A stretch of DNA of 64,000 nt from positions 71,080 through 135,079 of the forward strand of contig JAOABK010000001.1 in the NCBI GenBank assembly GCA_026418415.1. Direction: 5' to 3'. Under the pieces are notes generated by a model. It was not told where the DNA came from. It worked only from the letters and a program-made list of their open reading frames with translations, and searched no databases. This document shows, piece after piece, positions 2 through 43,818 of this stretch (its first letter is position 1; every line of letters begins with the position of its first letter). The position numbers and the translations under genes are program-made. The stretch comes from Pseudomonadota bacterium. GTDB lineage: Bacteria; CALINM01.

Positions 2-3000
2 AGTGATACAAATCTACCAGTTGATACTACTTTTTGCTATAGAGTATTAACTTTGGGTCCAAACAATGTAACATCAAGAGAAGATGTTGTGGTGGAAGGA
101 AAGACACTAAAACCCCAGAGCCCATCTATTACAAATATCCAAGCTTTAAATACAACGACAGTAAAGATTGATTGGTTAGATAATACGACTGAAGAATCAG
201 GGTTTAGGATAGAAAGGTGTTTAGGAGCAAATTGTAATGATTTTGCCTTTCTTGCAAATGTTTCTGCTAATACCACTACCTATAACGATACAACTGTTTG
301 TAATGGGCAAACATACAGATACAGGATATATGCATACAAAACAGGGTATTGGAGTACAGATTTTAGTAATATCCAAAATATAACCTTACCTCAGCCATCT
401 TCTACATTTACAGCTTCTGCAAATGCATTATCTGAGAGTTCTGTTAAGATTGACTGGGCAGATGCTTTTAGTGATGAAACAGGATTTGTGTTAGAAAGGT
501 GTGAGGGGATTAGTTGTAATGATTTTAGTCAGATTGGGACTGTGACATCAAATATTACTACTTATACTGATAATTCTGTAATGTGGGGGAGAACTTATAG
601 GTATAGGGTAAGGGCTTATAAGACTACAACATGCTCTTGGCTTGTTTATTCAAATATTGTCTCAGCAACTACTGATATACAAACACCTTCTTCTTTATCT
701 TCATCTGAAATAAAAACTACGAGCGTTAAACTTACTTGGACAGATAAAACTTCAACAGAAACTGGCTTCAAAGTATATAGATGCATGGGAACTTCTTGTA
801 GTGATTTTCAAGTGATTTCTACTCTTCCAGCTAATACAACAAGTTATACAGATACTTCTATTTGTCAGGGTGGAGTTTATAGGTATTATGTTACTGCTTA
901 TAAATCTTCAGAGTGGGAATCATTACCATCTAATATAATTTCGGTTACCGCATCTACGATGGGGAATTTTACAACATTTAGTGTAGAAAGAATTTCAGAG
1001 ATAGAAGCGCAGTTAAGTTTTGCTTTCAATAGTACTGATTTTGATGGTTTTAAAATAGAAAGATGCGATAAAGATGTTTGCAATGAAAGTGATTTCTATG
1101 TAATTAAGACTTTAACACCAAATTACTCAAAATATATGGATATTGTTGGAGGTGATAGATATTACAATTATCGAATAAAAGCTTATAAAAATGCTACATG
1201 TGGATGGGAAAGAGTTAGCTCAACAAAAGTTATTTATATGGAGGCACTCCAACCATCTGGGATAACTGCAACATCTTTGAGTACTAATGATGTGAAAATT
1301 TCTTGGATTGATAATACAAAATTTGAAACGGGATTTAAGATAGAGAGATGCGAGGGGGCAAATTGTTCTGATTTTTCATTAGTGGCATTCAAAAATCCTG
1401 ATCTTACTACTAACAACTTAGAATTTATAGATTCCAATACATGTCAAAATACTACATATAAATACAGAGTTAAGGCATTTTATGATAATTTAAGACGTTC
1501 AGGTGGAGGATGCTGGAAAAGACGTGCAAAAGTTAACATAACTAATTTTGCAGAAGATTCACAGATAAAAATTGTAGTCACAAAAAGAACGGGAATGAGG
1601 GATGATTTTGGTGATTTAAGATTCTTTGATGTTACTGAAAATGTTGAGATTCCATATATGATAGAGAGTAGTGATGGAACAAATTTAACTGTCTGGATTA
1701 AAACAGGAAAAAATAATAATATATATATGTATTACGACAATCCATTAGCTGAAAGCCCTGGGTATGGCGGCAAGAGGGTTTTTGAGTTTTTTGACCATTT
1801 TTCTGGTACTTCTTTAGATACAAGTATATGGCAAGCTAATTCTTCAAGTTATACTGTCGCAAATAGTGAGCTTATAATTTATTCTGGCTCAATAAGAACA
1901 AAAGACCCTTTACCCTTTTCTTTATCAGATGGGTTTATTTTAGAGGGTAAAATTAAATATTTAACAAATAGTGAAACCTATATGTATAGTGGAACATTAA
2001 CAGGTGTATCATCACCATATACTCAAAGCAGTAATATGGGTGGTGATGCTACAGTGCTTTTAATGAAAAATAGTAGTTACACTCCTTACAATAGTGACCT
2101 ATATTATTTTATAGGGGATGGTTCAACATATTCATATAACCAAGGTTCTGGTAGTTTATTTAGAACTAATATTGATACATGGTACATTTTTTCTGAAAAA
2201 TTTCATCCTGCTGGTTTGGTTATATCGAGGGACTATGTGGATATATTTACGAAGAACTTTAGTTGGGCAAAAAACCCTGTCTATATTACCTTAGGGGAAT
2301 TTAGTGGAAATTCCTCACAAAATATTCAAGATACATCCTATGATTGGGTTAGGATAAGAAAGTTTTTTGCATCTGAGCCTGCAGTAACTTTTGGATCTGA
2401 AGAATATAATAGTCTTTGTTTTACAACTAATGTCAAAGACCCATGGGAAAAGGTGAGTGATGGAATTGTAGTTACTACCCTCTCTTCTTCTGCCCCTTCT
2501 ATTACTGCAACTGGAGTTTCGGAAGCCAATATCAGGATTAATATCACTGACACAAATATTGATGAGACGGGATTTAGAGTTTATAGATGTGAAGGCAGTG
2601 GCTGCAATCCAAAAATTGATGGTGCCTTGGTTGGTACAGCTCCTGCTAATTCAACAAGTTATTTAGATACTGTAGCAACGGGAACTTATACATATCTTGT
2701 TGAAGTTTATAAAGATTCAGCCTGTGGTTGGGTAAGATCAAGCAATACCACCACAGCCTCGACAGTTTTACCACCAGCGCCTTCTTCCCTTACTGGAACA
2801 GCAGTAAGTACTACTGAAATTAAAATTAACTGGATAGATAATACTGGATCTGAAGATGGTTTTAAAATTTATCGTTGTACGGGAGCTGGGTGTAGTGATT
2901 TTACATTATTAACAACTGTTGGGAGTAATATAATAACTTATACAGATAATGTATGTAAAAATTCAAATTATAAATATAAGGTTAGGGCTTATAAGGAAGG

Positions 3001-5659
3001 TGCATGGGAAACAGATTACAGCAACGAAGTTTCAGTAACAACTTCAGATATTACACCACCTGTTTTAACTCTATCGAAAGTTTCTGAGATATCTATAAAA
3101 CTTGATTGGACAGATACAACTACTGATGAGTCTGGTTTTAAAGTGGAAAGATGCGATCTTAATACTTGCAACGATAACGATTTTAATCTTATAGCTACTT
3201 TAAGTAATAATACAATTACCTACACCGACATAGTGCCAATCACAAACAAAAAATATACCTATAGAATAAGAGCATTCAAAACAGCATCATGTGGTTGGGA
3301 AGTAGTAAGCGCTACAAAAGAAATTACTCTATCGCCTACTGCGCCATCATTGCTTTCTGGATACTCTGTTAACACTACTCGTACTAATCTAACTTGGTTA
3401 GATAGTACCGCCACTGAGACAGGATTTCAAATTTATAGGTGCGAAGGAGTTGGATGTAATCCTTTGCCGTCAAGCGAAGGTGGTGTTGGTACTCTTGTAG
3501 ATAGTATACAAGGTAATATAGCGAATTATCAAGATAATGGTGTATGCAGGGGAACAACATACGGATATAAAGTAAGGGCTATTAATGAAGGTTTATCAAA
3601 TGGAAAAGGTGGATGTTGGACAAAGAGAAGATTGCTAAATATAAGTAATTTCCAACCAAATTTTCAGGTAAAGGTTATAATCAATTATCAAACAGGTATG
3701 CAATCAGACTTTGATGATTTAAGGTTTTATGATGTGTTAGATAACTTAGAACTGCCTTATTTTATAGAAAGTAAAACTGATGGTGTATCTGCAGTAGTAT
3801 GGATTAAGACTGGTAGGAATAATAATATTTATATGTACTATGGTAATCCAAATGCTATAAGTTCAAGTGATGGATTTAAGGTTTTTGAGTTTTTTGAAGA
3901 TTTTGAAGATGGGAACTATGATGGCTGGACCGCACAGCTTTATAATACTTCTTTTGATAGTGTTTCTATTGTTACTGGATCTCCTTATGGAGTTTATAGG
4001 GTTAGAAACTATCATGCAGGGACTTGTGGGTATGCATATTTAAATAGAACAATCACTTTACCATCAGGTAAGTATGTTTTAAATTTAAAAACACGATATG
4101 ACTATTCAGGTAGTAAGTGTGATACAAACAACGGAGTGGGATATCTGTTAAATTTTGGTAATACTTGTAGGTTTTGGTATTTGTTACCCAATGAAAACAA
4201 TAGTTTTTGTTCAAGCGGGCAGGTTAATACCGGTTGGAGTAGTACCGCTCAGAACACTGAAATATCTGGAGAATTTATTATTCCCAATTATTTTTCTGGT
4301 GATATAACGAGCTTGACAATAAGTGCTCGTGTTCTCAATTCAGGATATACTTTAAATCTTTATACAGATAACATTTCTGTGCGTAAATATGCATCAATAG
4401 AACCAACAGTTAATTTTGCTTCTGAAGAAACTTCTGCTTGTTATACATTTAATAATACCTGGGTTAGTGGATGGAGCAATACTGCTTATATTTCAACACC
4501 TAATCCTATAACCCCCAATCTTACATTATCAAGAGCGTCAGAAACACAGGTAAATATTAATTGGACAGATGGGAATAACGATGAATCTGGGTTTGAGATA
4601 TGGAGATGCACAGGAGCAGGTTGTGATCCAAAATCAGGAACAGTTGTTGTGAGTTTGCCTGCCAATACAACTTCTTATTCAAACACGAGTTTAAGTCCCA
4701 TGACTACATATAGGTATCTTGTTACAGTTTATAAATTGTCTTCTGGATGTCCCGGTGGAAGATGGTCAATAGATAGTAATATAGCTGAGATTACAACATC
4801 AATAACACCGCCATCTTCCCTGACAGCAACAGCAAACAATACAACACAAATTAGTCTAAGCTGGACTGATAACTCATCAACAGAATTGGGATTCAGGATT
4901 TATCGTTGTATAGGGACGAACTGTAACGACTATACATTAATTGGTACTGCAACTGCTAATGCAACAAGTTACATTGATAATTCAGTATGTAAAAATACCA
5001 TTTATAGGTATAAGATTACAGCATATGGTTCTGGTTGGGAGACTGGTTTTAGTAATGAGGTTTCAGTTACAACACCGAATATTTCGAATCCTTCTCAACC
5101 AACTATACAAGTTGTTAATCACAGTCAATTAAATATTATCTGGAATGATAATTATAATGATGAAACTGGATTTAAGTTACAAAGATGTGTTGGAACTAAT
5201 TGTCAGGAAATAAATCTTTCAGCAAATGTTAGTTCATATAGTGATACGGGGCTTAACTCCTTTACAGAGTATTGCTATTCTATAAAAGCTTATAAAAATT
5301 CAATGTGTTCTTGGGAAACTTCTTATAGTCAACAGGTGTGTGCAAGAACTCTTCTTATACCACCAATCATTTTAAATGTTCAAGCTCCTGCATCGAATAA
5401 AATTATCGTTAGTTGGTTAAATCCAAACCCAATCGTTGAAGGTTTTGATATTGAAGTGGAATTGTGGAATGGTAAGTGGGTAAAAGTGGGTAGGGTATAT
5501 GAAAACTATACCACTTTTACAGACAGAGCTGGGATACAACCACAGACAACATATAAATATAGGGTAAAAGCATTTATTGGTAATTCATACTCTTTGCCGA
5601 GTGCTCCAGTTTCTGTTACTACTCCAAGTTATAATTCGAGTCATTATATATGCGAGTAG
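2..5659 (+). CDS. Giant secreted fibronectin type III / DUF2341 repeat protein (5' end outside window)
   Basis: The ORF track begins this at a TTG (position 53), but the frame is open to the window edge and codes for the end of another FN3 module (TTFCYRV), so the gene is 5' partial. I count 13 complete FN3 modules of about 90 residues, each with a GF-x-[IVL]-x-R-C-x4-C core and a YxYR strand. Modules 5 and 9 each carry an inserted DUF2341 domain (IYMYYDNP, IYMYYGNP) followed by a jelly-roll-like stretch. Ordinary modules alternate between two cysteine patterns. No C-terminal anchor or sorting signal is seen. The high Asn/Thr/Ser and Cys content fits an exported protein stabilised by disulfides, probably in surface binding or polysaccharide recognition; that role is inference. 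The start codon, signal peptide and true length cannot be seen. Confidence 0.9.
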   Translation, partial: SDTNLPVDTTFCYRVLTLGPNNVTSREDVVVEGKTLKPQSPSITNIQALNTTTVKIDWLDNTTEESGFRIERCLGANCNDFAFLANVSANTTTYNDTTVCNGQTYRYRIYAYKTGYWSTDFSNIQNITLPQPSSTFTASANALSESSVKIDWADAFSDETGFVLERCEGISCNDFSQIGTVTSNITTYTDNSVMWGRTYRYRVRAYKTTTCSWLVYSNIVSATTDIQTPSSLSSSEIKTTSVKLTWTDKTSTETGFKVYRCMGTSCSDFQVISTLPANTTSYTDTSICQGGVYRYYVTAYKSSEWESLPSNIISVTASTMGNFTTFSVERISEIEAQLSFAFNSTDFDGFKIERCDKDVCNESDFYVIKTLTPNYSKYMDIVGGDRYYNYRIKAYKNATCGWERVSSTKVIYMEALQPSGITATSLSTNDVKISWIDNTKFETGFKIERCEGANCSDFSLVAFKNPDLTTNNLEFIDSNTCQNTTYKYRVKAFYDNLRRSGGGCWKRRAKVNITNFAEDSQIKIVVTKRTGMRDDFGDLRFFDVTENVEIPYMIESSDGTNLTVWIKTGKNNNIYMYYDNPLAESPGYGGKRVFEFFDHFSGTSLDTSIWQANSSSYTVANSELIIYSGSIRTKDPLPFSLSDGFILEGKIKYLTNSETYMYSGTLTGVSSPYTQSSNMGGDATVLLMKNSSYTPYNSDLYYFIGDGSTYSYNQGSGSLFRTNIDTWYIFSEKFHPAGLVISRDYVDIFTKNFSWAKNPVYITLGEFSGNSSQNIQDTSYDWVRIRKFFASEPAVTFGSEEYNSLCFTTNVKDPWEKVSDGIVVTTLSSSAPSITATGVSEANIRINITDTNIDETGFRVYRCEGSGCNPKIDGALVGTAPANSTSYLDTVATGTYTYLVEVYKDSACGWVRSSNTTTASTVLPPAPSSLTGTAVSTTEIKINWIDNTGSEDGFKIYRCTGAGCSDFTLLTTVGSNIITYTDNVCKNSNYKYKVRAYKEGAWETDYSNEVSVTTSDITPPVLTLSKVSEISIKLDWTDTTTDESGFKVERCDLNTCNDNDFNLIATLSNNTITYTDIVPITNKKYTYRIRAFKTASCGWEVVSATKEITLSPTAPSLLSGYSVNTTRTNLTWLDSTATETGFQIYRCEGVGCNPLPSSEGGVGTLVDSIQGNIANYQDNGVCRGTTYGYKVRAINEGLSNGKGGCWTKRRLLNISNFQPNFQVKVIINYQTGMQSDFDDLRFYDVLDNLELPYFIESKTDGVSAVVWIKTGRNNNIYMYYGNPNAISSSDGFKVFEFFEDFEDGNYDGWTAQLYNTSFDSVSIVTGSPYGVYRVRNYHAGTCGYAYLNRTITLPSGKYVLNLKTRYDYSGSKCDTNNGVGYLLNFGNTCRFWYLLPNENNSFCSSGQVNTGWSSTAQNTEISGEFIIPNYFSGDITSLTISARVLNSGYTLNLYTDNISVRKYASIEPTVNFASEETSACYTFNNTWVSGWSNTAYISTPNPITPNLTLSRASETQVNINWTDGNNDESGFEIWRCTGAGCDPKSGTVVVSLPANTTSYSNTSLSPMTTYRYLVTVYKLSSGCPGGRWSIDSNIAEITTSITPPSSLTATANNTTQISLSWTDNSSTELGFRIYRCIGTNCNDYTLIGTATANATSYIDNSVCKNTIYRYKITAYGSGWETGFSNEVSVTTPNISNPSQPTIQVVNHSQLNIIWNDNYNDETGFKLQRCVGTNCQEINLSANVSSYSDTGLNSFTEYCYSIKAYKNSMCSWETSYSQQVCARTLLIPPIILNVQAPASNKIIVSWLNPNPIVEGFDIEVELWNGKWVKVGRVYENYTTFTDRAGIQPQTTYKYRVKAFIGNSYSLPSAPVSVTTPSYNSSHYICE
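50..5640 (+). repeat. Array of 13 FN3 modules with two DUF2341 insertions (protein-level repeat)
   Basis: Protein-level tandem repeats of about 270 nt. Odd modules have a cysteine before the F strand (VCxGxxY-like). Even modules lack it and instead have C-[SG]-W or a similar cysteine in the F-G loop. DUF2341 inserts lie at about nt 1510-2410 and 3610-4430. The DNA has diverged between copies, so this is an old array, not a recent tandem expansion. Confidence 0.85.
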
Positions 5660-6393
5660 TTATATATTTAGTTTTATTACAATTTTTTATGTTTAGTCTC
5701 CTTTTTGCGGAGGAGAATAAGGTTTTTGTTAAGGGGAAAGTTTTATTCGAGGATTCAAAAGATATAAGAGGCACAATCTCTTTTTTTAGCAAGGACAATG
5801 GAGTTTTACCTGATCCAGAATATTATATGATGATTCCTGATGAGGTAATAGAATTAAAGAATGATGGAAGTTTTGAAGGCCAAGTTATTGCTGGTATTTA
5901 TTACATAGGAATTAATCTAAATAGTACCGGCAAAAAGGGGCCGGTAACTATTGGTGATAGATTCTCCTTGATAAAAAAAGGTGATGATGTAACTGAATTT
6001 AATCTAACTAATATCAAAACCTATGATTTTGGTAAAATAAATATTAATCCATCAGTGTTAAAGGAATTTAAAATCAAAACATGTATTTTTGGAAAAGTTA
6101 TAGATGAAAACAATAAACCTCTATCAAATGTGTATGTATTTGCTTTTATTGAAGAGAAAAAAACAAAGAAACCTTTGTATATATCAGAACCTACTGATAA
6201 AGAAGGAAGGTTTATTCTCAGATTAGGCAGTGGTGGAAGGTATATTTTAAGAGTTAGAAATGTTATAGATGGTGGACCGCCTAAACAGGGCTATATAATA
6301 GGTGTTTATGGACAGAAAGATAACCCAAAGGTTATTGAGATAAAAGAAGGAGAGACTATAAATAATATAGAGATAAAAGCTGATAAAATATAA
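5650..6393 (+). CDS. Secreted protein with carboxypeptidase-regulatory-like domain
   Basis: A 247-residue protein. The N-terminus is a signal peptide (hydrophobic run ending LLFAEE). Around residues 130-245 lies a beta-sandwich of the carboxypeptidase-regulatory-like type: CIFGKVIDENNKPLSNVYV, then TDKEGRFILRL, a common secreted prealbumin-like fold. Residues 25-120 look like a second, more diverged copy of such a domain. It starts inside the last codons of the giant FN3 gene (10-base overlap), so the two are co-transcribed and probably co-secreted. No catalytic motif is visible. I see no strong Shine-Dalgarno, so translational coupling is likely. Function unknown; a structural or surface-associated partner of the FN3 protein is inference. 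Confidence 0.75.
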   Translation: MRVVIYLVLLQFFMFSLLFAEENKVFVKGKVLFEDSKDIRGTISFFSKDNGVLPDPEYYMMIPDEVIELKNDGSFEGQVIAGIYYIGINLNSTGKKGPVTIGDRFSLIKKGDDVTEFNLTNIKTYDFGKININPSVLKEFKIKTCIFGKVIDENNKPLSNVYVFAFIEEKKTKKPLYISEPTDKEGRFILRLGSGGRYILRVRNVIDGGPPKQGYIIGVYGQKDNPKVIEIKEGETINNIEIKADKI

Positions 6394-39755: not shown

Positions 39756-39813
39756 TTTACCTTTATGTCTATTTAAGTTTTAGGTTGTAATGACTATTTT
39801 TTAGGAGGTGGCA

Positions 39814-42800
39814 ATGAAAAAAACAATATCAATAATAATTCCTTTTATTTTTTTATTTCTCTCCATAAATTTATCCTACTCATTAACCTTTAATGACGGG
39901 TTTAATCCAAATGTTGATGGAATGATACGTGCTCTGGCAGTTCAAGAGAATGGGAAGATTTTAATTGGGGGTTATTTTACTTACGTAAATGGTGTCAAGA
40001 AGAACTATATAGCAAGATTAAATCAAGATGGCTCTCTCGATGAGACCTTTGATTGTAAAGTTAACCAATATGTGAATTTTATTTCTCTTCAAAATGATGG
40101 AAAAATACTAATTGGTGGTAATTTTACAAATGTAAATGGAATAGAAAGAATTAGAGTTGCCCGTTTAAATCCTGATGGCACACTTGATTCTACTTTCAAA
40201 GCGGATGCTAATGGTTTCGTTGCTTCCATAATCCCTTATTCAGATAATAAAATACTAATTGGAGGAGATTTTACAGAAATTAATGGTTTACCAAAAATCA
40301 GGCTTGCAATGCTTGATTATAATGGGAATATAGATGAGAGTTTTAATGCTGAAGTTGGTGGAGGTGTTAGATCTATAGCAGTTCAAGTTGATAACAAGAT
40401 TATTATTGGAGGTTATTTTATATCAGTTAATGGAATTACAAGAAATAATATAGCCAGATTGAATCCCGATGGAAGCTTGGATCAAACATTTAATATTTTA
40501 GTAAACAATGGAGTAGAATCTGTTGCAATACAGGTAGATGGGAAGATAGTAATGGGTGGCTTATTTACAAGTGTTGGTGGTGCTATGAGAAATTATATAG
40601 CAAGATTAAATAGTGATGGATCTCTTGATTCCACTTTTAATATAGGTGTTAATAATACAGTTTTCAGAGTTTTGGTTCAAGGGGATGGAAAAATACTCTT
40701 AGGTGGCGGGTTTACTACCCTTGGGGGATTGGCAAGAAATAATCTTGGTAGAATTAATTTTGATGGTAGTTTGGATAGTTCATTTAATCCCCAGTTTGAT
40801 AATTGGATTTACGATGTTGCTATACAAAGAGATGGTAAGATTATTGCTGTGGGAAATTTTTCTAATGTAAATGGTACTCTAAGGAATGGAATTGCAAGAA
40901 TTTATAATGATGGAAAAGTTGATAAAGATCTTATATCTAATACGGATGATGTAGTATATGCAATTGCATTACAAAGGGATCAAAAAATTCTTATAGGAGG
41001 TGGTTTTACACAGGTCAATAGTGTTATAAAACAGGGAATTGCACGTATTAATAATGATGGTAGCCTTGATTCAACATTCAACAGTATAATCAATATCGGT
41101 CAAATTTATTGTATTGCTATTCAGAACGATGGAAAGATAATAATAGCAGGAAATTTCAGTCAAGTTAACGGAGTTATTAGAAATAACATAGCAAGACTAA
41201 ATCAAGATGGATCATTAGATAACTTGTTTAACCCAAATGTAAATAAGCCTATTTACGCTCTGGCAATTCAAAGTGATGGCAAAATATTAATTGGTGGTAG
41301 TTTTACTCAAGTTGGACTTACATCTATTAATTATTTGGCAAGATTAAATATTGATGGTAGCTTAGAAGAGGGGTTTAAGCACGACATAAATGAGGATGTT
41401 TATACGATTGCCATACAGAAAGATGGCAATGTTTTAATTGGTGGTAAATTTACAAGTATTGGTATCTTCTCTAGGAACTATATAGCAAGAATTAATAAAT
41501 CTGGTGGTGTAGATTTATCTTTTAATCCAGGTGCTAATGGATATGTATATTCAATCGCTATTGTTAATGATGATACTTTTATAGTTGGTGGACTATTTAC
41601 CCAAATAGGTGGAATTAGTAGAGATCGAATAGCTAAGCTAAATTCTTTGGGTGGAGTAGTAGAAAGTTTTAATGCAAGTGCAAATAGTTTAGTTAATTCA
41701 ATAGTAATTCAATCAGACAATAAAATCCTGATAGGTGGATATTTTACAACAATAAACGGTATTACAAGAAATTATATTGCAAGACTCCACTCGAATGGAG
41801 TTCTTGATACTACTTTAAATCAAGATGTTAATAATTATGTATTTTCTATTGCTGTACAGTTTGATAATAAAATTTTGGTTGGTGGTACTTTTACTCAAGC
41901 AGGAGGGCTTACGAGACAGAGATTTGCAAGATTAAGTCCCGAATATTCTTATGACAATCTAATTTTGGATCCCAATGGAGATAAAATAACATGGACCAGC
42001 TATGGGTCCTCAATTTTAGATTACGTTTTTTTTGAATACTCAGTAAATGGTTTATTTTGGGTTTTACTTGGCTATGGCACAAAAGATATCTATGGTGATT
42101 GGGTCTTAACAGGCCTTTCACTCCCTTATGAAGAAATAGGTTATATTAGAGCAAATGGAAGGGTAATTGGTGGTAGTAGAAACTCTTCAAGTGGAATTAT
42201 AAGTTCCATTCAGCAGTTTTATAATACATATTTACTTGATGTAGGTATTTCTGGTAATGGAAAGGGTAGTGTTGTTGATAATACAGGCGGAATTTCTTGT
42301 GGTTCCGATTGTTCTGAAATTTTTCCCAAAAATACAGTTGTAACTTTGTACGCTATCCCTTCACATGATGCTGAGTTTGTAAATTGGGAAGGTAGTTGTA
42401 CAGGAACAAATCCAATTATAGATGTTGAAATGTCGTCATATAAGAATTGTAGAGCGGTGTTTCAAAAGGTAATTTATTTGAAAAATGGTGATTATGTAAC
42501 AACTTCAGCTTCCATTGAATTAAACTTATATCCCGTTGGTACTCCAACAGAAATGATAATTTTTGCTGGTAAGACATGGAGCAGGAAAGAGGCTTATGTA
42601 AACACCAAGATTATTACGGTTCCAGGTGGTGATGGCAAAAAAGAAGTATTTGTAAGACTTTTAATTGATGGTAATTGGAAGGAATACAGAGATAGTATAT
42701 ACTTAGACGTAAAATCACCAGTTGGTGGAATCCAGATAAATGGTGGAAGTTCAATTACATTATCTACAAATGTTACTCTAAACCTTCATGTAGTTGATTT

Positions 42801-43818
42801 TCAGGACTATGATAAGTTATTCATGAAATTTAGTAATGATAAAATTAACTGGACAGACTGGGAGCCCTTTAAAAATATAAGAGCATATTTATTAACAGAT
42901 GGAGAGGGGCTTAAAACTGTATATGTTCAATACAAAGATAGTGGTGGGAAAGTATCGCCAATTTATAGTGATAGCATAGTATATAGTAATGTTTTGGGGT
43001 ATATATTTGACCCTGCAAGGATTGAGATTAACTTTGGTGAGTTGTTTACAAATAAAACTGGGGTAATACTTAGTTTAAATCCTCCAGATGTAACGTATAC
43101 AAAAATGAGTTTAAGTCAAGACGCAGTCAAATGGACAACTTGGGCATTAATTACAAGTCCAAAAAGTCTTAGTCTCACTGGACAGGATGGCATAAAACGG
43201 GTATATGTAAAGTTTAAAAAAGATGATGGAACTGAGAGTAATATTTATTATGATGAAATAATACTTGATAGAAAAAAACCAGTTGGGGTTTTATTAATAA
43301 ATAATGGTGCATATATTACAAACAATAATTTAGTAAATCTTACATTCAATATTGCAGATGAATTGAGTGGAATTAAAAAGGTACTCCTTAGTAACGATGG
43401 TGTAAATTACAACATTGAGTATAATTATCCAGTTGGATTACCAATCAATTTTACATTATCTGGTGAAGGGGTAAAGAAAGTATTTATGAAAGTAATTGAT
43501 AATGCTGGCAATATTTCCGTTCCTATAATGGATAGTATAGTACTTGATATGACCGCACCAACTGGAAAGGTTATTATAAACAATGGTGCTTCAACAACAA
43601 CAAATCCTACCGTCACTCTTACAATTAGTGCGACCGGAGCAGTTTGGATGATGGTAAGTGTGGATGGGGTATTAGACACAGAGAAATGGGAAAATTACAG
43701 TACTAAGAAAATTGTCACACTTCCATCTGGAGTTGGGACTAAAGAAGTTAGGATAAAATTCAAAGATTTAGCTGGTAATGAGTCATTGGTGTACTCTGAT
43801 ACTATTGAATTGAGATGA
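39814..43818 (+). CDS. Giant secreted delta-60 repeat (beta-propeller) / Ig-like protein
   Basis: About 1334 residues from ATG 39814 (AGGAGGTGG 4 bases upstream; the track's GTG lies inside that site). It begins with a signal peptide ending SLSYSLTF. Residues 30-720 are 14 delta-60 repeats (VQxDGKILIGGxFTxVNG...RNxIARLNxDGSLDxTF). Residues 800-880 form an InlB B-repeat-like / SprB-type domain with a Cys pair (NGKGSV...CGSDCSEIF...WEGSC). Residues 885-1334 are five beta-sandwich modules with FxxLTGxGxKxVYVKFKDxxGN-like ends. No anchor or sorting signal is visible at the C-terminus (ends IELR). It is probably a surface or matrix protein; the ligand is unknown. Confidence 0.9.
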   Translation: MKKTISIIIPFIFLFLSINLSYSLTFNDGFNPNVDGMIRALAVQENGKILIGGYFTYVNGVKKNYIARLNQDGSLDETFDCKVNQYVNFISLQNDGKILIGGNFTNVNGIERIRVARLNPDGTLDSTFKADANGFVASIIPYSDNKILIGGDFTEINGLPKIRLAMLDYNGNIDESFNAEVGGGVRSIAVQVDNKIIIGGYFISVNGITRNNIARLNPDGSLDQTFNILVNNGVESVAIQVDGKIVMGGLFTSVGGAMRNYIARLNSDGSLDSTFNIGVNNTVFRVLVQGDGKILLGGGFTTLGGLARNNLGRINFDGSLDSSFNPQFDNWIYDVAIQRDGKIIAVGNFSNVNGTLRNGIARIYNDGKVDKDLISNTDDVVYAIALQRDQKILIGGGFTQVNSVIKQGIARINNDGSLDSTFNSIINIGQIYCIAIQNDGKIIIAGNFSQVNGVIRNNIARLNQDGSLDNLFNPNVNKPIYALAIQSDGKILIGGSFTQVGLTSINYLARLNIDGSLEEGFKHDINEDVYTIAIQKDGNVLIGGKFTSIGIFSRNYIARINKSGGVDLSFNPGANGYVYSIAIVNDDTFIVGGLFTQIGGISRDRIAKLNSLGGVVESFNASANSLVNSIVIQSDNKILIGGYFTTINGITRNYIARLHSNGVLDTTLNQDVNNYVFSIAVQFDNKILVGGTFTQAGGLTRQRFARLSPEYSYDNLILDPNGDKITWTSYGSSILDYVFFEYSVNGLFWVLLGYGTKDIYGDWVLTGLSLPYEEIGYIRANGRVIGGSRNSSSGIISSIQQFYNTYLLDVGISGNGKGSVVDNTGGISCGSDCSEIFPKNTVVTLYAIPSHDAEFVNWEGSCTGTNPIIDVEMSSYKNCRAVFQKVIYLKNGDYVTTSASIELNLYPVGTPTEMIIFAGKTWSRKEAYVNTKIITVPGGDGKKEVFVRLLIDGNWKEYRDSIYLDVKSPVGGIQINGGSSITLSTNVTLNLHVVDFQDYDKLFMKFSNDKINWTDWEPFKNIRAYLLTDGEGLKTVYVQYKDSGGKVSPIYSDSIVYSNVLGYIFDPARIEINFGELFTNKTGVILSLNPPDVTYTKMSLSQDAVKWTTWALITSPKSLSLTGQDGIKRVYVKFKKDDGTESNIYYDEIILDRKKPVGVLLINNGAYITNNNLVNLTFNIADELSGIKKVLLSNDGVNYNIEYNYPVGLPINFTLSGEGVKKVFMKVIDNAGNISVPIMDSIVLDMTAPTGKVIINNGASTTTNPTVTLTISATGAVWMMVSVDGVLDTEKWENYSTKKIVTLPSGVGTKEVRIKFKDLAGNESLVYSDTIELR
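39895..41960 (+). repeat. Fourteen delta-60 repeats (two sets of seven)
   Basis: Protein repeats of about 51 residues. Repeat 7 ends in the divergent IYNDGKVDKDL, the one clear break in the array before repeat 13, which would separate two seven-unit blocks. This fits two seven-bladed propellers. Confidence 0.8.

Follow-up and report, generated by a model that had tools for sequence, protein, structure and literature searches.

Tandem fibronectin type III (FN3) modules form rods, of which fibronectin III 7-10 and other multi-FN3 structures are described examples. FN3 arrays are usually viewed as flexible strings of beads, and we know of no systematic inter-module disulfide in tandem FN3 rods such as fibronectin III 7-10. 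In the FN3 topology, the E-F loop lies at the C-terminal pole of a module and the F-G loop at its N-terminal pole. In the tandem immunoglobulin domains of Siglecs, the neighbouring beta-sandwiches of the V-set/C2-set pair are joined by a disulfide, which fixes the angle between the two. The bacterial array analysed here is like the tandem FN3 rods in fold and head-to-tail order, but differs from them in that every array module has a CX4C motif and each of two adjacent modules contributes one further cysteine. Whereas Siglecs have a single bond at one junction, in this long array a bond is predicted at every second junction. FN3 arrays, CX4C loops, DUF2341 domains and cytochromes of comparable size to the one encoded next door are all of already known kinds. 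In the open-licence literature that we searched, nothing on point was found on inter-module disulfides in FN3 arrays, and no conserved rule linking module i to module i+1 by a disulfide staple was found.

The FN3 protein and its cysteines

The window, that is, the entire 64,000-nucleotide stretch of DNA under analysis, opens with a reading frame (positions 2-5659, + strand) that covers the C-terminal portion of a giant bacterial protein. This protein is secreted and has 2913 amino acids, counted from its signal peptide, and 54 cysteines. The gene starts 3.08 kb upstream on the same contig, and the first 1027 residues are encoded upstream of the window (L003:7998 onward). The signal peptide is followed by a beta-propeller, an FN3 module without cysteines, a second propeller, an FN3 module with two cysteines in another pattern (Nb, the rest of which occupies positions 1-115), and thirteen FN3 modules (M1-M13; all coordinates below are on the + strand). 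The Fibronectin type III profile (PF00041) matched with E = 2e-41 and 140.5 bits, compared to a gathering score of 25, and the N-terminal propeller repeats are of the delta-60, SBBP and PQQ kinds (80.6 bits for TIGR02608, cut-off 76.5; 48.1 bits for PF13360, cut-off 27.6). A second large propeller protein (1336 amino acids, delta-60 repeats with E = 5e-95) is encoded at 39808-43818 (+), 34 kb from the FN3 gene.

The RC-x4-C motif, which an earlier sequence-only reading of this DNA had described as common to all modules, is present in 12/12 modules from M1 to M12 (116-5356), and the terminal module M13 (5357-5656) has neither CX4C nor a third cysteine. That reading had also proposed two alternating types of module, and the alignment of M1-M12 bore this out without exception: the third cysteine is in the E-F loop (alignment column 80) in all odd-numbered modules, hereafter type A, and in the F-G loop (columns 97/98) in all even-numbered ones, type B. 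With six modules of each type, perfect alternation accounts for 2/924 possible orders. The type A modules are M1 (116-391, E-F cysteine at 299-301), M3 (680-955, cysteine at 863-865), M5 (1247-2485, 1442-1444), M7 (2777-3052, 2954-2956), M9 (3338-4504, 3545-3547) and M11 (4805-5086, 4988-4990). The type B modules, each with a predicted staple to the type A module that precedes it, are M2 (392-679, F-G cysteine at 632-634), M4 (956-1246, 1199-1201), M6 (2486-2776, 2723-2725), M8 (3053-3337, 3290-3292), M10 (4505-4804, 4748-4750) and M12 (5087-5356, 5306-5308).

Ordinary modules do hold the odd number of three cysteines that had been noted, but M12 has five, owing to an additional pair in its F and G strands, and M5 and M9 have extra cysteines in the inserts of their F-G loops. 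Each insert consists of a DUF2341 domain and a second domain, with a cysteine at both ends (M5 insert, 1502-2422, cysteines at 1511-1513 and 2417-2419; M9 insert, 3605-4444, cysteines at 3614-3616 and 4439-4441), and the M9 insert holds four more. The part of the protein upstream of the window neither continues the period and the inserts nor breaks the alternation: M1 is the first CX4C module, and what precedes it is a different region, with the propellers and two FN3 modules.

In an AlphaFold model of M1-M4, run with 16 homologous four-module rows (mean pLDDT 93.4, pTM 0.73), the E-F loops contain C62 and C250, and the F-G loops contain C173 and C362. The best Foldseek matches of this model were 3t1w, 6tpw and 1fnf, which are fibronectin and LAR FN3 arrays; the model and the matches support a tandem FN3 beta-sandwich fold for M1-M4. 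The fold search with a model of M9-M10, in which confidence was low for the second domain of the insert, returned FN3 structures only. Because the E-F loop of one module and the F-G loop of the next lie at facing poles of the two neighbours, the predicted bond between them would be sterically natural.

Coupling of cysteines in adjacent modules of homologous arrays

Scanning one genome per species, together with added genome searches, identified related arrays in metagenome-assembled genomes labelled Nitrospirae, Geobacter, Geobacteraceae, Desulfuromonadaceae, Desulfobulbaceae, Syntrophaceae, Acidobacteria and Thiothrix, so that the homologues span several phyla (Nitrospirota, Desulfobacterota, Acidobacteria). 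A profile built from the modules in the window served to align the homologous modules and to assign each cysteine a position. Typical complete arrays run E-F, F-G, E-F, F-G and so on, followed by a cysteine-free terminal module as in the window, and in complete arrays the first of the third cysteines is of the E-F kind and the last of the F-G kind. In five loci (L040, L041, L043, L093 and L097), pairs are separated by one or two modules that lack the third cysteine, which breaks the alternation and leaves the pairs intact. Strict alternation, although perfect in the window protein, was therefore rejected as the underlying rule.

Among adjacent CX4C modules of these arrays, which share kinship such that neither the counts nor the p-values represent independent trials, the E-F cysteine of module i and the F-G cysteine of module i+1 were both present in 103 cases, both absent in 98 and discordant in 3 (2 + 1). 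In the reverse direction (F-G of i with E-F of i+1), both were present in 70 cases, neither in 103, and 38 were discordant (21 + 17). When the order of modules was shuffled within arrays, 43.9 ± 4.0 adjacent E-F/F-G pairs were expected, compared to the 103 observed. A second set of 20 loci, fetched later and picked solely for their position beside a related cytochrome, yielded 41 cases with both cysteines, 118 with neither and 3 discordant ones, whereas the reverse direction was discordant 40 times. Given the 38 and 40 discordant cases in the two sets, reverse pairing was rejected. The clear exception inside an array, with an unpaired E-F or F-G-like cysteine, is at modules 10/11 of L039, and those in the second set are module 12 of L150 and module 15 of L162.

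Judged from the sequences, the underlying rule is the coupling of the E-F cysteine of module i to the F-G cysteine of module i+1, not alternation. The disulfide between neighbouring modules that the sequence-only reading had suggested is strongly supported by this covariation, which also gives the predicted bond its direction, from the E-F loop of i to the F-G loop of i+1; in the window protein, it would join modules 1-2, 3-4 and so on to 11-12, and not 2-3 or 4-5. The same covariation speaks against pairing of the third cysteine inside its own module.

The DUF2341 domains (PF10102), a family known from surface proteins, gave two matches that exceed the cut-off of the family (70.8 and 60.3 bits, E = 2.2e-19 and 4.1e-16), confirming modules 5 and 9 as the carriers. 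A four-module super-repeat had been read from this spacing. The three module pairs M7/M11 (57% identical), M4/M8 (43%) and M6/M10 (43%) are nearest neighbours by identity or in the module tree, and their kinship is consistent with a four-module duplication in the window protein. The super-repeat can thus be retained as a weak, local or lineage-specific feature of this protein, but not upstream of the window and not as a conserved feature of the homologues. A conserved four-module period was rejected as a general rule, as DUF2341-like carriers in homologues have other spacings: they are two modules apart in L045, L052, L050 and L094, and occur once per array in L035, L037, L091 and L092. With one exception, the DUF2341-like inserts of homologues are in A-type modules; they lie within the F-G loop, with their own pair of cysteines at both ends in most cases. 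This preference for A-type modules probably arises because the F-G loop of a B module is taken by the staple, whereas that of an A module would face an unstapled joint, which is the simplest reason that we see for this distribution. B modules in L044, L045, L049, L055 and L098 have inserts of ~200-240 amino acids at a different site from the F-G inserts of A modules, namely between the C' and E strands.

Shared descent, metal binding and cross-chain bonds as alternatives

The alternation could be a mere mark of the duplication of a two-module ancestor, with no function of the third cysteine at the joint. The unit was indeed inherited as a pair: types A and B form two clades across phyla in the module tree (the best split misplaces 2/83 modules, support 0.90), and with the cysteine columns removed and the home locus left out, the type was recognised in 117/118 and 107/109 cases. 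However, cysteines that merely hitch-hike on such descent should be lost independently. When each module was assigned to the A-like or B-like type by its remaining columns, with cysteine columns and home locus again left out, the coupling persisted within A-like modules (102 both, 24 neither, 1 discordant) as well as within B-like modules (94 both, 18 neither, 1 discordant), such that modules that keep the signature residues of their type nevertheless lose both cysteines together, with 24 co-absent cases vs. 1 discordant case among the A-like ones. Likewise, A-like modules that precede another A-type module lack the E-F cysteine (L040, L041, L093, L097). The co-absent pairs are spread over several array positions in several lineages, with varied residues in place of cysteine, and given that the sequences are related, this repeated co-absence is a stronger argument than the p-values. 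Because the coupling persists within subtypes defined without cysteines, it takes more than shared descent to account for it, and we consider a non-functional third cysteine very improbable.

A metal site at the A-B interface with four cysteine ligands for zinc or rubredoxin-like iron, formed by the CX4C and E-F cysteines of A and the F-G cysteine of B, would be compatible with the FN3 topology, in which the three cysteines of A are all at the pole facing B, and with the electron-transfer protein encoded next door. The distribution of the remaining cysteines argues against it. B modules retain the CX4C motif, as do A-like modules without a third cysteine; conversely, an A module of L165 has lost the first CX4C cysteine and gained one in the F strand, and the E-F/F-G pair is kept. 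Furthermore, the cysteines within modules come in even sets. Among modules without large inserts, 217 have CX4C alone, 22 have CX4C together with cysteines in the F and G strands, 21 have cysteines in the C-C' loop and the F strand where the first CX4C cysteine is missing, 4 have only the F- and G-strand cysteines, and 5, all from one protein, have cysteines in the C-C' loop and the G strand, with five modules fitting no complete set. Complete sets are what would be expected if each corresponded to a disulfide, leaving just the E-F and F-G cysteines to look outside the module. A metal site therefore appears highly unlikely. The least likely alternative is that the third cysteines bond between different chains and link them sideways into a fibre or mat. 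Polymerisation is conceivable in principle for a rod next to a secreted cytochrome, but cross-chain links need no partner exactly at i+1, and the strict adjacency and direction of the coupling favour a bond within the chain. Two families of disulfide machinery were searched in the 92%-complete genome to which the window belongs (G000), and neither DsbA (PF01323) nor VKOR (PF07884) had a match there, which counts against the disulfide reading.

The neighbouring cytochrome and a proposed role of the array

Directly upstream of the FN3 gene, ~3.1-8.4 kb before the start of the window (L003:2654-7984), is the gene for a cytochrome of 1776 residues with 36 CxxCH and 5 CX4CH motifs; the conserved cytochrome has about 37 haem motifs. 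Where the contig is long enough, its homologues, 45-58% identical over long stretches, almost always adjoin the FN3 gene. In the order of one Geobacteraceae homologue, 36/141 genomes have a related cytochrome, and in 19/20 of the best further loci, the start of the propeller is directly beside the cytochrome. Array and cytochrome are both absent from a genome of the same genus and from one of the same family. A mis-binned contig is unlikely, as the window also holds a DNA polymerase III alpha gene that shares 85% identity with its counterpart in the same-genus genome; taken together with the absence of both genes from these relatives, this indicates an accessory gene pair.

By size and haem count, the cytochrome can be likened to those with 34-37 haems in Geobacter genomes, such as Gmet_0571, OmcN and GSU0702 (PMC2996986, PMC10989804), of which GSU0702, large and predicted to be extracellular, lacks an established extracellular function (PMC10599522). 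We found no description of a fixed pairing of a propeller-FN3 gene with a cytochrome, for Geobacter cytochromes or otherwise, in the open-licence literature searched. The gene pair can do without staples, because companion FN3 proteins without CX4C arrays or staples are encoded beside related cytochromes (L105, L106, L147, L148, L151-L154, L157; many Geobacterales loci). These companions form a natural unstapled comparison set.

Considering the observed placement of the cysteines, their coupling from i to i+1, the co-absence independent of subtype and the conserved gene pairing, we find it very probable that the array is built of A-B units, with the E-F cysteine of A bonded to the F-G cysteine of B, in a secreted rod that is most likely a scaffold or adhesin for the cytochrome with its ~37 haem motifs; both the disulfide chemistry and the physical partnership with the cytochrome are what we infer from these patterns. 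In each A-B unit, the bond would run from the C-terminal pole of A to the N-terminal pole of B. Every array module would in addition have its own CX4C disulfide, and some would have further complete pairs, either between the F and G strands or, if the first CX4C cysteine is missing, between the C-C' loop and the F strand. The window protein would then consist of six stapled doublets (1-2, 3-4, 5-6, 7-8, 9-10 and 11-12) with unstapled B-A joints between them, and the DUF2341-containing inserts would hang off the F-G loops of A modules at these unstapled joints. Secreted through its signal peptide and with two beta-propellers in front of the rod, the protein may serve as a stiff extracellular scaffold or adhesin.

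If formed, the staples predict a stiff, covalently braced rod, and the coupling rule may provide a design from nature on which stiff FN3 rods could be modelled. It predicts from sequence which joints are covalently braced, such that the mechanics of such rods might be read from genomes, and the pairing offers a concrete candidate scaffold for cytochromes without an assigned extracellular role. A possible but doubtful extension is that the gene pair constitutes a new apparatus for extracellular electron transfer in several phyla, in which the cytochrome would be held by a rigid, doublet-stapled FN3-propeller rod and the staples would set the stiffness or spacing that the haem chain needs, perhaps with a response to the extracellular redox state. 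On the other side of the FN3 gene, the start of a gene for a secreted protein of 247 amino acids (5650-6393, +), with a weak carboxypeptidase regulatory-like match, overlaps the end of the FN3 gene, and the two are possibly in one operon.
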